From a virus: DNA of 43,921 nt. The translations under genes and the position numbers were made by a program. Under the pieces are notes generated by a model that was not told where the DNA came from, made no database searches, and was given only the letters and a program-made list of their open reading frames with translations. Within the stretch, counting starts at the first letter, position 1; each line of letters starts with the position of its first letter. Where the stretch lies: IMG/VR virus record IMGVR_UViG_3300025138_000080, positions 1-43,921 of that record; one strand, given 5' to 3'. Shown here in pieces: positions 14,258 through 43,921 of the stretch.

Positions 14258-14287
14258 TAAAGTAAAGTCTACATAGACTACACTTTA
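14258..14287. promoter_or_regulatory. 30-bp dyad with TAAAGT/ACTTTA arms, candidate operator
   Basis: The half-site TAAAGTNNAGTCTA is followed by a 2-nt centre and its exact inverted copy TAGACTNNACTTTA, so 24 of 30 positions are symmetric. No T-run follows, so it is not a normal terminator. Its outer arms contain the same core as the ACTTTAC array at the right end of the window. Confidence 0.5.
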
Positions 14288-37569: not shown

Positions 37570-38994
37570 TCAGGCGTTGAGGGCGTAGTCACTGATCGAC
37601 GCACGCTTCTTGGGTTCGTAGTTGTCGAAGAACTCCGTGTTCTTCTTGTAGATTGATCCTCTCACGGTCCACGACTTGATACCGGGATCCCACTGTGCGC
37701 CGTGAGGCTTTACTTCATCCTTCTTCTCGAATGAGACATTGAGATCGAGAACGTCATTGTCCTGAATGGACGTTGGGTCAAAAGGGACGTTCTGGTTTCC
37801 CTCCTCTTCCGTCGAGGTGGACATACTCTCGTCCACCTTGTCGTAGAGGTTGCGGAACGCTTCCTGCGTCTCGTCGTCGAATCGAGCGAGTGCGAGATCG
37901 ATGGAAGTGGCACGATCCTTGAAGATCGAGAACGCCTTGCAGATGTTCTCCAGACGGCGAGTGGTGATGATCTCGTCGATCGCACCCTCGGTGAATGCCT
38001 TGCGAGTGATCTCCGCCCACGAGGTCAGGTGTTCGGCGAAGTCGGAATCGACATGTCCGAACTTCTCCATCTTCTTGATGAGGATACGCTTCTCGACTGC
38101 ACGGGTTGCGTACTCCTGCTCCATCGTCCAGTCGAAACGATCGAGGAACGCTTCGTTGAGGACATTGGTGCCGATGAAACGTCCATCGCTGTCACCCTTA
38201 CCCTTGGTGTTGGCAGTGGCCACGACGGTGAATCCCTTGGCAGGAGTGATCCACTCACCAGTCTTCTTGATGAGGATACCCTTACCTTCCAGCACCGGCT
38301 GAAGACACATGATCTTGGACGAACCGAGATCGATCTCGTCGAGGAGGAGAACAGCACCACGCTGCATCGCTTCGACGACGGGTCCGTAGACGAACTTCGT
38401 CTCACCAGCGACGAGTCGGAAACCACCCACCAGATCGTCCTCGTCGGTTTCGGAGGTGATGTTGACACGGAAGCATTCTCGCTTCGTCTTAGCACATGCC
38501 TGTTCGATCATCGTGGTCTTACCGTTACCAGACATACCAGTAATGAAGATGGGAGCGAACAGGTTGGCGGAGATGATCTGCTCCACGTTCTTGGAGTGTC
38601 CCCACGAAACGTAGTCCTTCATGCGATCAGGCACCAGACTGGTACGCTCACCAGCAGTCATGCCCATGATGGTGTTCATGACGGGAGCAGGAGTCGGATC
38701 ACCGATCGGAGCAGCGACGGGAGCAGCAGCGACGGGAGCAGCAGCGACGGGAGCAGCACCACCAGCGTACTCAGGGACACGGAAGAACCCACGATCGGCT
38801 CGGCGAGAGGAGTCCTGTACGATCCACGCAGGAGCGTACTTCATTCCGATGCTGTTGGCGATCTCGTTGAGATCGGAGCGGGAGTAAGAGTCTGCGATGG
38901 CGGTTCCAGTGTTTGCCATTGCGTCGATGAAGGACTGCTGCTTGGAACTGATGGACATGGTGGTGTCTCCGTTGTTGTGGTTCGTTTCTGTCAT
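37570..38994 (-). CDS. CobS/MoxR-like AAA+ ATPase with N- and C-terminal accessory domains
   Basis: 474 aa. Residues 15-76 form the SKQQ...APAW domain shared with the 110-aa protein. An Ala/Pro linker follows (APVAAAPVAAAPVAAP). The AAA+ core has Walker A GMSGNGKT (153-160), ETDEDDLVGGFRL, Walker B LLLDEIDLGS (about 217-226) and VVATANTKGKGDSDGRFIGT, as in phage CobS-like proteins. The C-terminus has LNVSFEKKDEVKPHGAQWDP followed by GIKSWTV, a DUF5710-like module. It starts 6 nt after a -10 box at 38994; an alternative ATG at 38958 has GGAGA. Such ATPases remodel a partner, here presumably the divergent VWA protein. Confidence 0.88.
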   Translation of the reverse strand: MTETNHNNGDTTMSISSKQQSFIDAMANTGTAIADSYSRSDLNEIANSIGMKYAPAWIVQDSSRRADRGFFRVPEYAGGAAPVAAAPVAAAPVAAPIGDPTPAPVMNTIMGMTAGERTSLVPDRMKDYVSWGHSKNVEQIISANLFAPIFITGMSGNGKTTMIEQACAKTKRECFRVNITSETDEDDLVGGFRLVAGETKFVYGPVVEAMQRGAVLLLDEIDLGSSKIMCLQPVLEGKGILIKKTGEWITPAKGFTVVATANTKGKGDSDGRFIGTNVLNEAFLDRFDWTMEQEYATRAVEKRILIKKMEKFGHVDSDFAEHLTSWAEITRKAFTEGAIDEIITTRRLENICKAFSIFKDRATSIDLALARFDDETQEAFRNLYDKVDESMSTSTEEEGNQNVPFDPTSIQDNDVLDLNVSFEKKDEVKPHGAQWDPGIKSWTVRGSIYKKNTEFFDNYEPKKRASISDYALNA

Positions 38995-39156: not shown

Positions 39157-39184
39157 TTGACGTTGGGTGTGGATGTGGTACAAT
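39157..39184 (+). promoter_or_regulatory. Sigma70-type promoter of the VWA gene
   Basis: TTGACG (39157-39162), 16-nt spacer, TACAAT (39179-39184), ending 6 nt before the ATG at 39191. No Shine-Dalgarno is visible, so the transcript is probably leaderless. Confidence 0.72.
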
Positions 39185-39190
39185 ATACGC

Positions 39191-41449
39191 ATGAACGAAA
39201 CCCACCACGACAATTCAATCTCCGCATTCGCTCGACTCCTCGCTACCGAGAACATCGTTGTGCGACACTGCCGCCATGCACAGACTGCATCCTTCGATGT
39301 TGTCGATCGTATCCTCACCCTTCCCCGTTGGAAGAACATGTCCGACGAGGTCTACGACATGCTCGTCGGACATGAAGTCGCCCATGCACTGTGGACCGAC
39401 AGCAGCATCCACGAAGAGTCCGGTTGCCTTCAGGCTTGTGTGGACATCGACGCCGATGCCCCTGCTAACGTCATGGGTATTCTGAACGTGGTTGAGGATG
39501 CACGCATCGAACGACTCGTCAAGTCCAAGTACCCCGGCCTCAAGAGGGACTTCGCCGCTGGGTACAAGTACCTGCATGACATTGATCTCTTCGAGATCGG
39601 TGAACGTGGTGGTGTCTCCGAGATGGGATTCCTTGATCGTCTCAACCTGCACTTCAAGTTGGGTATCCTTGGCATTCTTCAGATTCCTTTCGAGAACGAC
39701 ACCGAGATCTGGTTCCGCGATCGAATCGCGGCCGCCAAGACTTGGGACGATGTTGTTGAGATCTCTCGTGATCTGTACGAGTACGAGATGGATCAGCAGT
39801 CGAAGGAAGAATCTCCTGATGCACCAACGCCCGCAGGTTCTGCCTCCGGTACTGGTAATGGACAGTCCTCCGGTAAGTCCAACGAGACGAACGACTCCGA
39901 CGAATCAGGAGATTCTGGGTCTGGTTCTGGTGATCGCAATCAGGGTGACGATGGTGATAACGATCAGGAAGGTGATGCTGGTGCATCCTCTCCCGACTCC
40001 AGTGGTGGCGAGTCTGGTTCGGACATCGGAACCAAGGAACCCACCAAGAAGAAGCCCGAGATCAACACTCAGGACGCAATGGATACGGGACTCGTCGAGA
40101 AGAGTTACGGTTATGACTCCGAAGATGTCGATACCATGCCCACTCCGATTATCGACAAGATGATCGTCACTGCCAAGTCCATTCGTGAGAGTCACGAGGA
40201 CAGTACGTACCATCACAATTGGAATGGCGAACGAACTCGCATGATGGATTCACAGATTCGACAGCGAAACGAGATTCTTGTACAGCAGTACACCAAGTGT
40301 GATGAGTTCATGTCATCCGAGAAGTCCACCGTCAACTACCTTGCCAAGCAGTTCGAGATGCGTAAGGCAGCAGACCAGCACAAGCGTACGATGACATCCA
40401 AGACTGGACGCCTTGATCCCGTCAAGATGATCAACTATCGCTGGAGCGAAGACATCTTCGCCAAGAACACCACTGTTCGTGATGGTAAGAACCACGGGTT
40501 CGTCATCGTCGTTGACTGGAGTGGTAGCATGCACGACAATCTCGTCGCCACCATCAAGCAGTCGATCACTCTTGCAATGTTCTGCCGCAAGGTGGGTATC
40601 CCGTTCGATCTCTATGCGTTCTCGGATCGCACTGGTGTCCGCATGGAGTGGGACGACCAAGGTAATCTCAAGAACAACGACCATTACGCATGGGAGGGTG
40701 ATGCTAAGGACAACAACTTCGCCGATCTCCGTATGCTCAACTTCCTCTCTTCTTCGATGAACCAGCGAGAGTTTGCGACCGCGTGCCGCGTACTCTTCTC
40801 GGTGGCATCCAACGAGGGAAGTAGTTACAAGAGTTCGGATCCCGTCACTACGATCCATCCTACACTCACTCTCGGTGGTACTCCTCTGGAGGAGACTCTG
40901 ACAGCACTGCACTGGATCGTGCCGAAGTTTCGACAGCAGTACAACCTTCAGATCGTCAACACCGTCCTGCTCAGTGATGGATGTGGATGCCAGCGATTCA
41001 ACGGTGTGATCGTCAACCCGATCACTCGCGTCTCCTACGGCGCACGTCGCCACGAAGATCGCAGCATCGACTCGACTTGTCTCCTGCTCAAGTCACTCAA
41101 GGAAACGACTGGCACCACGCTCATCGGTATGTACCTCTCCACCTCCAAGAATGCTGTTCGTGGTGTCTACGGTAGTTGGGTAGACCAGTACAACATGCAA
41201 CCCGATGAGGAGAAGAACATTCGTTCCTCATGGAAGAAGGATCGATACTACCTCGCCAATGGTTTGTACAGCAAGTACTTCGATGAAGCGTATATCATCG
41301 ACGCAAACTCCACCCCAGAGACTGACATCAACCTTCCAGACTCCGCTCAGTCCCATGCCAAGTTGCGAACTGCGTTCGTCAAGGGTATGAAGTCACGAGG
41401 TATGTCACGTAACCTCGTCAATCGGTTCGTCGAGGCAACTGCTCGATAG
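39191..41449 (+). CDS. VWA-domain protein with N-terminal HExxH metallopeptidase motif (CobT-like layout)
   Basis: 752 aa. Residues 55-110 carry His61-Glu-Val-Ala-His65 (VGHEVAHALWTD) and a downstream Glu102 in NVVEDARIERL, the gluzincin arrangement. Residues about 200-300 are an acidic Ser/Gly/Asp linker (DESGDSGSGSGDRNQGDDGD), as in CobT-like proteins. A VWA domain follows with the MIDAS start Asp442-Trp-Ser444-Gly-Ser446 (VVDWSGSMHDN), TLGGTPLEETL and VLLSDGCGC. AAA+/VWA pairs act as metal-chelatase or protein-remodelling machines. Here the peptidase motif points to a regulated protease. The frame extends to GTG 39167, but that would overlap the promoter. It ends at a strong terminator. 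Confidence 0.85.
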   Translation: MNETHHDNSISAFARLLATENIVVRHCRHAQTASFDVVDRILTLPRWKNMSDEVYDMLVGHEVAHALWTDSSIHEESGCLQACVDIDADAPANVMGILNVVEDARIERLVKSKYPGLKRDFAAGYKYLHDIDLFEIGERGGVSEMGFLDRLNLHFKLGILGILQIPFENDTEIWFRDRIAAAKTWDDVVEISRDLYEYEMDQQSKEESPDAPTPAGSASGTGNGQSSGKSNETNDSDESGDSGSGSGDRNQGDDGDNDQEGDAGASSPDSSGGESGSDIGTKEPTKKKPEINTQDAMDTGLVEKSYGYDSEDVDTMPTPIIDKMIVTAKSIRESHEDSTYHHNWNGERTRMMDSQIRQRNEILVQQYTKCDEFMSSEKSTVNYLAKQFEMRKAADQHKRTMTSKTGRLDPVKMINYRWSEDIFAKNTTVRDGKNHGFVIVVDWSGSMHDNLVATIKQSITLAMFCRKVGIPFDLYAFSDRTGVRMEWDDQGNLKNNDHYAWEGDAKDNNFADLRMLNFLSSSMNQREFATACRVLFSVASNEGSSYKSSDPVTTIHPTLTLGGTPLEETLTALHWIVPKFRQQYNLQIVNTVLLSDGCGCQRFNGVIVNPITRVSYGARRHEDRSIDSTCLLLKSLKETTGTTLIGMYLSTSKNAVRGVYGSWVDQYNMQPDEEKNIRSSWKKDRYYLANGLYSKYFDEAYIIDANSTPETDINLPDSAQSHAKLRTAFVKGMKSRGMSRNLVNRFVEATAR

Positions 41450-41521: not shown

Positions 41522-41671
41522 ATGAGTATGAATATCATAAAACGGGTTCTCGCCAAGATTGGCCTCAAGTCATCGATGAAGGATCCCGCAGAGATTCGTA
41601 GACTCGGAACAGTAGCAAGAAAGTATCAAAAACCACCGCCAATCGGCAAAAACCTAGACAGGAGAGCATGA
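41522..41671 (+). CDS. 49-residue basic hypothetical protein
   Basis: Reads MSMNIIKRVLAKIGLKSSMK and is very basic. A TATACT -10-like box ends 2 nt before this ATG (41514-41519); a second ATG at 41528 is possible. There is no clear Shine-Dalgarno and no matching -35. It overlaps the next gene by ATGA (41668-41671). No family recognised. Confidence 0.55.
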   Translation: MSMNIIKRVLAKIGLKSSMKDPAEIRRLGTVARKYQKPPPIGKNLDRRA

Positions 41672-43260
41672 TGAAGAAAGGCAAGAAGATCACCAAACTG
41701 CACGGCAAGGAATACCCCAAGGGTACTCATATGTGTGCCACTCACGTTGAACATGCAGAGTGGGGGCAAGGTAAGCCTATTCACTCCCAGCACGCCGCTC
41801 CTGATGAGAACGGACACATCGACTGGTACGATGTCATGTTCGAGCACGGTATCGAGAAGAATGTACCCACTGCCAATATGAATATTCTTGCCGAAGCAGG
41901 CCACATGGAACATGCACACCATGCGTCTGACGGTGAAGATCTTGCCGAGAAGATGGACCCAACCGATCACGTTAAGAAGAAGAAGAACGGCAACTTCTGC
42001 GTCTACAACAAGGACGGCAAGATTGTCAAGGAGTTTGACAACAAGAAGGAAGCAGACGCATACGCCATCAAGAACCACAAGAAATTGATGACGGAAGGTG
42101 TCAAGTCTTTGTTCAAGATGGCAGGGGTCAAAAAGCCTCTGACGCGGGAACAAAGAAGAAAGATTGAGAAACTCCTGAAGGATGGTGATGTTCGTGGTGC
42201 AAGGGAAGCAGCAAAGAAACAAGTACCACCGAAACCAATTTCCGACTCAGTAGAGAATGATGTAGAGTCACTCATCTCTGAGTACTTCTCCATGTACTTC
42301 CAAGCAGATCTCACAGAATCAATGGATAGTATCTCAGGAGATGACGTACTGACTGCCATTGCTGAACTCAACACGTTTACCGTCACACTAAATGAGGCAA
42401 TGGATCGTAAATTTAGTAGTGCGAAGATCGGCACACTCGGATACTACTACAACCAGCATCGAAAGAGAGGACTTGATCCAAATCAAGCGTACGCAAAGGC
42501 TAAGGATCAGGCAAGCAGATCTAGTTCAGACACTGGTGATAGAAGAACCGCATCCGTGAAACAATTCAGGGGTATCAGAGCAGGGGAAAATGCCAGGAGG
42601 GACTACATGGATGATATCAGAAAGCGTGGAGGATCAAGGATTCCCGGTATGACCGAGACTTATGATAAACTTACACCCAGCCAGGCAAGGGATGCAGCAC
42701 GCAGACTCAAGCCAACTCGTGCCACGGTTGCGAATGTGAAACTACCTTCCACAGATGCAGAGCGTGAGAGATATGCTAAAAAGGCCATGACGAGTAGAAC
42801 AGGTAGAAATCCAAGTAGTACCAAGCAGAGAAGACTAAACGATCTTCAACTCAGAAGCCACGTAGAGCATGATGGACCAGTACTCGATGAAGGTTCGTTG
42901 GGAGTTAAGAGAATGGCAAGGAAACTTCAAGGTGAGAGAAAAGCCGCTACAAGGGCAGGTACCATTGCCCAAGCGGCAGGTATAAAACTTAATAACAATC
43001 CACTTCATACGGCAGCAACCCGAACTGAACGTATAGGTGGAGTAGTTCACGGCGGGAACTCAGCCCTCAGAACGCAGCGGAACCGGAAGCTTACTCCAAT
43101 AGAGTCTCGCCATCCAAATGTAAGAAGGGCATCGCCGGATCAGGTCAAGGACAGAGCAACTGATGCGGTAGTTGCTGGAGCAAGAGGGAAGACGCCAGTA
43201 GCAGATGCAATTAGAAGAGCCAAATCTATAATCAATAGTAAGAAGCCCTTCGCTGGGTAA
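41668..43260 (+). CDS. Large basic protein with His/Cys-rich N-terminal domain, hypothetical
   Basis: 530 aa. The first 90 residues form a distinct His-rich domain (THMCATHVEHAEWGQGKPIH, IDWYDVMFEHGIEKNVPTAN, HMEHAHHA) that could bind metal and that I recall from marine phage proteins without a name. A short NFCVYNKDGKIVKEFDNKKE segment follows. Then comes a helical region with acidic LISEYFSMYFQADLTES and TLNEAMDRK (possible L-N-E site). The C-terminal 270 residues are strongly basic and helical (REAAKKQVPPKP, DAARRLKPTRATVANVKLPS). It may be a DNA-associated virion protein. It ends before a terminator. Confidence 0.6.
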   Translation: MMKKGKKITKLHGKEYPKGTHMCATHVEHAEWGQGKPIHSQHAAPDENGHIDWYDVMFEHGIEKNVPTANMNILAEAGHMEHAHHASDGEDLAEKMDPTDHVKKKKNGNFCVYNKDGKIVKEFDNKKEADAYAIKNHKKLMTEGVKSLFKMAGVKKPLTREQRRKIEKLLKDGDVRGAREAAKKQVPPKPISDSVENDVESLISEYFSMYFQADLTESMDSISGDDVLTAIAELNTFTVTLNEAMDRKFSSAKIGTLGYYYNQHRKRGLDPNQAYAKAKDQASRSSSDTGDRRTASVKQFRGIRAGENARRDYMDDIRKRGGSRIPGMTETYDKLTPSQARDAARRLKPTRATVANVKLPSTDAERERYAKKAMTSRTGRNPSSTKQRRLNDLQLRSHVEHDGPVLDEGSLGVKRMARKLQGERKAATRAGTIAQAAGIKLNNNPLHTAATRTERIGGVVHGGNSALRTQRNRKLTPIESRHPNVRRASPDQVKDRATDAVVAGARGKTPVADAIRRAKSIINSKKPFAG

Positions 43261-43425: not shown

Positions 43426-43710
43426 TTACGCCCCATCTCGCTCGCCTGTGAGATATTTTACCTCTAACAGAAATGCCGTAGGGATTTTATCTAACCGAGA
43501 ACTCTCAGAGGTACCGAGAGTATTCACTACGCTTATATGTGAGTCACCGTGGTACACACAGTAGCCTACCGTACGCATGGTAGGACAGGGTTTCTTCGCT
43601 GCTCTCAGTATATCTGAGCGTACGTTCCACCCTATGTCGCCAATCTCTTCGGCGTCTACCCACGTCACTTCGACAATCGGAAACACTGCGTCTACTTTAC
43701 GTTTGGCCAT
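43426..43710 (-). CDS. Conserved small phage protein, function unknown
   Basis: 94 aa from ATG 43710, which has GGAG 9 nt upstream; the frame continues to a GTG at 43743 inside the repeat array. VFPIVEVTWVDAEEIGDIGW, then KKPCPTMRTVGYCVYHGDSH and KIPTAFLLEVKYL is a pattern I recall from many phage genomes without a known role. Upstream on the minus strand is TATACT (43731-43726), and in place of a -35 there are GTAAAG repeats. This gene is the likely target of the array if the array regulates transcription leftwards. Confidence 0.7.
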   Translation of the reverse strand: MAKRKVDAVFPIVEVTWVDAEEIGDIGWNVRSDILRAAKKPCPTMRTVGYCVYHGDSHISVVNTLGTSESSRLDKIPTAFLLEVKYLTGERDGA

Positions 43711-43741
43711 GGTCAATATCTCCGAAGTATATAGGGGGGCC

Positions 43742-43907
43742 ACTTTACTTTACGTAGTCTACTTTACAAATGGACCGTGCTACTTTACAAACCGGGGGGG
43801 TGTACCTTACACTTTACACGGGTGCTACTTTACACCCTGCGTACTTTACAAGATGGCACCCGTACTTTACAGAGTACCCCGCGTACTTTACAGGGGTGCT
43901 ACTTTAC
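43742..43907. repeat. Array of ACTTTAC direct repeats
   Basis: Ten exact ACTTTAC copies start at 43742, 43747, 43761, 43782, 43811, 43827, 43843, 43864, 43885 and 43901, with one variant ACCTTAC at 43804. Most are extended to TACTTTACA. Spacing in the right half is 16, 16, 21, 21 and 16 nt. All copies point the same way, and the spacers are G/C-rich. Nothing coding is seen here. Confidence 0.9.
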
Positions 43908-43921
43908 ACGCATCGGTTGAT

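Follow-up and report, generated by a model that had tools for sequence, protein, structure and literature searches.

A tandem array of nine-base-pair boxes at the end of a marine T4-type phage contig is probably a binding-site array

What is the run of ACTTTAC repeats that closes the virus record IMGVR_UViG_3300025138_000080, and what might it do? The window, i.e. the whole stretch of 43,921 nucleotides (nt) that was analyzed, is a record without end repeats, and its gene content identifies it as part of the genome of a Kyanoviridae-like marine phage of the T4 type. The array lies within the last 180 base pairs (bp) of the window, and its last box ends 14 bp before the contig end. The original prediction described ten exact copies and one variant, all in one orientation, between positions 43742 and 43907, and offered an iteron-like origin, a packaging site or a multi-site operator for the gene of 94 amino acids (aa) at the left edge. 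Our recount bore out the description. On the plus strand there are ten exact copies of ACTTTAC in a single orientation (starting at 43742, 43747, 43761, 43782, 43811, 43827, 43843, 43864, 43885 and 43901) and one ACCTTAC variant. The copies at 43742 and 43747 overlap by 2 bases, which leaves nine independent copies. One more ACTTTAC is located at 43694-43700, within the 94-aa gene.

The array is real and beyond chance. ACTTTAC was counted 19 times in the whole window against an expectation of 5.95, and a count of 19 was reached in none of 100 shuffles. When the 187-bp array segment was subjected to 3,000 dinucleotide shuffles, the highest copy number of any 7-mer was 7 and the usual maximum was 2. 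No 7-mer cluster elsewhere in the window is as strong as the array: other 187-bp stretches held at most 5 copies of any 7-mer. The conserved unit is an asymmetric 9-bp box, TGTAAAGTA, which lies on the minus strand and is read towards the 94-aa gene. Its core, GTAAAGT, is invariant save for one A to G change, while 9 of the 11 copies have the outer T and 9 have the outer A; the columns outside the box carry little information except for a single T/C column where the linker ends. A search for the box elsewhere found TGTAAAGTA seven times in the window, every time inside the array, and single TGTAAAGTA words in the relatives were at control level.

Successive boxes are separated by 5, 14, 21, 22, 7, 16, 16, 21, 21 and 16 bp (the distance between exact copies becomes 29 bp if the variant is skipped). 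The claim that the spacings are mainly 16 or 21 holds for six of the ten steps, three of each. Although 16 and 21 bp do correspond to about 1.5 and 2 helical turns, the helical phasing read from them did not survive analysis. The vector strength at 10.5 bp was 0.31, a value equalled by 33% of random placements, the best helical period overall had a p-value of 0.25, and a 16-bp distance places neighbouring boxes on opposite faces of the DNA. It is notable that two distances recur; an arrangement along one face is statistically unsupported. The linkers each differ from the others and, as predicted, are rich in G+C (43-67%, nearly all 50-67%, relative to 41.6% in the window). Since the 9-bp box is conserved while the linkers vary in both length and sequence, the copies look like protein sites. 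A coding, RNA or satellite unit that had been duplicated would not be expected to leave this pattern.

The 94-aa gene does exist on the minus strand, which places the array 32-198 nt upstream of it. A leader, TATATACT..GGAGA, is common to the window and to the locus of one 94-aa homologue (L002), and the part that was replaced would therefore be the part upstream of the leader. This suggests that the leader is ancestral and that the promoter lies further upstream, inside the array. We found no good sigma-70 promoter directed at the 94-aa gene in the array region; together with the homologue-conserved leader, this makes a regulator-dependent promoter plausible.

The box of the array also occurs in other phages. 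As a direct pair with a distance of 20-21 bp, TGTAAAGTA was detected at 59 other viral loci, and at 27 of the 59 a Cro-like gene, assigned to Pfam P22_Cro/YdaS above both cut-offs, follows 24-26 nt after the end of the pair. Given this position in 27 loci, the pair is likely an operator in those phages. The same 21-bp direct pair is present in the array itself, between boxes 2 and 3, 3 and 4, and 8 and 9. The 27 loci (L008, L064, L053 and 24 others) have a 21-bp period and form a family of phage contigs. Loading on short direct repeats is also documented for two regulators: BldC loads cooperatively and head-to-tail on a variable number of direct repeats with 9 bp per protomer (PMC5859096), and PimR loads cooperatively on a variable number of heptameric direct repeats (PMC5930380).

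Conserved boxes with free linkers, the Cro-linked pairs and the BldC and PimR precedents together point to a multi-site control region. We consider it about an even call that the array is such a region, specific to this lineage, for the 94-aa gene and/or a putative gene to its right, with a putative regulator bound to it; the array probably adds a new example to an established class of element, the tandem binding-site array. Among the three functions originally proposed, the multi-site operator fits best, being backed by the promoter-proximal position, the asymmetric box with free spacers and the Cro-linked precedent. Protein binding, action on transcription and the direction controlled are what we infer from the array. 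One sequence-specific DNA-binding protein would occupy the tandem boxes oriented towards the 94-aa gene, and the free GC-rich linkers would set the distances between them, mostly at 16 or 21 bp. This small regulator, encoded by the phage or by its host and probably by a gene outside the contig, would load cooperatively and head-to-tail along the upstream region. Such loading would either repress or activate transcription leftward into the 94-aa gene, and perhaps also rightward transcription of a gene beyond the contig end.

We looked for the array in related sequences. It is absent from every relative that could be checked, an outcome that the original prediction had named as counting against it, and the closest relative found, G011 (39,991 bp), starts inside the 94-aa gene (L473:3-260), so that the stretch matching the array lies beyond that contig. 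No 94-aa homologue with sequenced upstream DNA carries the array. By eye, four of these homologue loci (L004-L006 and L472) have the T4 late-promoter words TATAAATA and L002 has a sigma-70-like promoter. None of 39 related records had a spaced-triple pattern of boxes, and none of 10 had a spaced-pair pattern. Clusters of at least 6 equal 7-mers within 190 bp were found neither in 1.57 Mb of related loci nor in two Kyanoviridae-type records, one complete (Pelagibacter phage HTVC008M) and one covered to about 85% (the first 150 kb of Synechococcus phage Sf-CH5). No other viral contig has the exact extended form of the array, and a distant blastn search against 50,697 phage records returned nothing similar to it, although such searches may not list records nearly identical to the window. 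When viral and genome contigs were searched for the spaced-triple pattern, the matches listed were mainly simple satellites, and the version of the pattern with GC-rich linkers matched only unrelated phages and coding repeats.

Several points weigh against the control region. No helix-turn-helix family was found among the window open reading frames (ORFs) scanned with Pfam, the window has no Cro homologue, and no helix-turn-helix gene lies directly downstream of the array, the 94-aa protein itself not looking like one of that type. Ten sites are many for a phage operator, where the Cro pairs have two. The 94-aa homologues apparently manage without an array, on ordinary promoters of the T4 late or sigma-70-like type. 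Finally, the array is known from one record only and the DNA to its right is missing, and for now it is a single truncated instance.

The main rival is an iteron-type replication origin resembling T4 oriE, in which an initiator on the direct repeats opens the adjoining DNA or a local transcript primes replication; we regard it as unlikely, though it fares best among the alternatives. About ten one-way repeats are within the range of iteron arrays. The array does repeat a short site several times in one direction in a T4-type genome, and T4 itself has oriE iterons. However, the spacing of the boxes is uneven and follows no regular helical phase, and the sequenced side has no marked AT-rich stretch; its lowest G+C in a 50-bp window is 36%, about 290 bp from the array and inside the 94-aa gene. 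No initiator gene was recognized among the scanned ORFs of this incomplete genome, and no comparable array was present in the two Kyanoviridae-type records or at homologous places. Nor does the array sit in a gene 5/repEA/repEB neighbourhood: on the sequenced side it is flanked by the genes for peptidase and CobS and by the 94-aa gene. The oriE iterons are reported as 12-nt repeats, spaced evenly across the region of gene 5, repEA and repEB, with an unproved role (Vaiskunaite et al. 1999, as reviewed in PMC3016281). In T4 (L479:5403-5570, near oriE) the sole direct-repeat family that we found has a 24-nt period and lies inside the coding sequence of gene 5, unlike the noncoding array. If these repeats are the reported iterons, their even spacing could follow from the structure of the protein. 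The prevailing view is that origins of T4-type phages depend mainly on R-loops primed by transcripts. Rather improbable, in our view, is a small protein that polymerises on ten one-way 9-bp boxes at two distances to form a lineage-specific control or initiation array, possibly an origin with a dedicated initiator.

A short word that was amplified locally by neutral processes and has no present function, or a decayed former cluster of sites, is somewhat less probable still. It would agree with an array that occurs in a single record and that the relatives do without. However, the boxes are nearly invariant and the linkers diverged, and this disfavours it because neutral duplication would leave the linkers as alike as the boxes.

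A mobile-element end of the Mu, Tn7 or IS21 kind, with several same-direction transposase sites and a 5'-TG start, seems very unlikely. Such ends do carry multiple direct repeats (PMC10122671), and the array shares with them several direct sites that begin with TG, the box starting TGT. The orientation of the boxes, however, puts the body of such an element to the left, in conserved phage sequence with the gene order of G011. The array has no inverted partner in the window, where GTAAAGT on the plus strand occurs singly at 14262, 27910 and 36313, no transposase was found among the scanned ORFs (some small ORFs were outside the scan), and IS21 ends usually have about two repeats, against ten here. 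Separately, an IS21 reading of the TGTAAAGTAGCA loci L034, L057 and L062 was rejected, with no transposase visible and phage genes present there.

Hardly more credible is an element acting at the RNA level within the 94-aa messenger RNA leader, or a site for a host response regulator such as a Pho box. GCACCC/GGGTGC linkers can pair, and the use of host Pho boxes has precedent among cyanophages. Folding, however, was no better than that of shuffles on either strand (z-scores of -0.19 and -0.79), the array had no match in Rfam, and no tRNA was found. Pho boxes have an 11-bp repeat spacing, which is not present in the array. Three further candidates were set aside: a CRISPR-like array, as the units are too short; coding repeats, as the 16-bp steps break the reading frame; and a middle promoter (MotA), where TACTTTA resembles TGCTTTA but the linkers have no following -10 element.

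Least probable of the alternatives with any support is an assembly artefact at a contig end, the other ground for doubt named in the original prediction. The array does lie at the very end of the contig, and the 94-aa gene is close to the end of two records. No exact repeat in the region exceeds 16 nt, which is too short for the usual assembly k-mers to loop, and every linker is different. The contig is also sound up to the 94-aa gene, since its peptidase and 94-aa genes converge just as they do in G011. The two independent contigs may break near the same place by chance or at an assembly-hostile feature. A packaging site had no supporting feature.

Coordinates of the array, its boxes (numbered from the contig end) and the neighbouring features in the window
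Feature	Coordinates	Strand	Remarks
Array, ten exact (nine non-overlapping) GTAAAGT and one GTAAGGT, consensus TGTAAAGTA	43742..43908	-	
Box 1, outermost, TGTAAAGTA	43900..43908	-	next box 16 bp away
Box 2, TGTAAAGTA	43884..43892	-	next box 21 bp away
Box 3, TGTAAAGTA	43863..43871	-	next box 21 bp away
Box 4, TGTAAAGTA	43842..43850	-	next box 16 bp away
Box 5, TGTAAAGTA	43826..43834	-	next box 16 bp away
Box 6, TGTAAAGTG	43810..43818	-	
Box 7, GTAAGGT variant (ACCTTAC on the plus strand)	43804..43810	-	
Box 8, TGTAAAGTA	43781..43789	-	next box 21 bp away
Box 9, TGTAAAGTA	43760..43768	-	next box 14 bp away
Boxes 10 and 11, overlapping, GTAAAGTAAAGT	43742..43753	-	
Leader TATATACTTCGGAGAT	43719..43734	-	limits approximate, by eye; like the leader of the L002 homologue, TATATACTAGGAGAA
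94-aa gene	43429..43710	-	ATG at 43710, GGAG ribosome-binding site just upstream
Kyanoviridae-type peptidase gene (phrog_459)	39173..41446	+	convergent with the 94-aa gene

The assignment of the window rests on its genes for a T4-type DNA polymerase, UvsX, a gp41-like helicase, primase and a RuvC-like resolvase, together with ribonucleotide reductase, CobS and a cyanophage-type peptidase; the peptidase gene, convergent with the 94-aa gene as it is in G011, ties the contig end to this phage. The 94-aa protein is a member of a conserved marine-phage family and had no match in Pfam or PHROG. AlphaFold predicted a small beta-barrel with moderate confidence (predicted local distance difference test, pLDDT, of 68), with no helix-turn-helix in the predicted structure and with weak Sm/Hfq-like matches only (E 0.13). 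Between the peptidase and 94-aa genes, a 530-aa gene (41668-43257) is missing at that place in G011; it is mosaic in relatives, where separate pieces match different places. A sigma-70-like promoter, TTGACA-TATAAT, at 569-600 before the dUTPase gene (a textbook match by eye) indicates that the phage uses host-type early promoters. At 38710-38758, in an ORF region, there is a perfect 15-bp tandem repeat, AGCAGCGACGGGAGC, in 3.3 copies. Upstream of two 94-aa homologues we noted an almost identical 122-nt element (L004:2709-2830 and L472:1339-1460) with three substitutions by eye, two of which change U-A to C-G in the closing stem (GUUCU/AGAAC to GUUCC/GGAAC). It folds at about -36 kcal/mol, had no credible Rfam match and is a possible structured RNA.

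What repeat arrays do in T4-type phages is recognized as an open question, as for the T4 oriE iterons (PMC3016281), and a strong noncoding array in a marine T4 relative would part repeat function from coding constraint. If the operator array is true, its regulator would stand outside the known early/middle/late scheme of T4. The array resembles T4 oriE in being a cluster of short same-direction repeats in a T4-type phage, with a role as yet unproved, but is noncoding, has a 9-bp box with uneven distances of 16 or 21 bp and lies beside the peptidase and 94-aa genes. With the BldC and PimR operators it shares a variable number of short direct repeats, theirs being bound cooperatively to control transcription; their repeats are shorter and tighter (9 bp per BldC protomer, heptamers with 3-4-nt spacers for PimR), and both are actinobacterial proteins of which no homologue was seen here. 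The P22-Cro/YdaS pairs have two sites, AT-rich linkers and a helix-turn-helix gene 24-26 nt downstream, whereas the array has ten to eleven sites, GC-rich linkers and a neighbouring gene whose product is a predicted small beta-barrel. The two nevertheless have in common an identical 9-bp box, direct orientation, 21-bp spacing and a promoter-proximal position.
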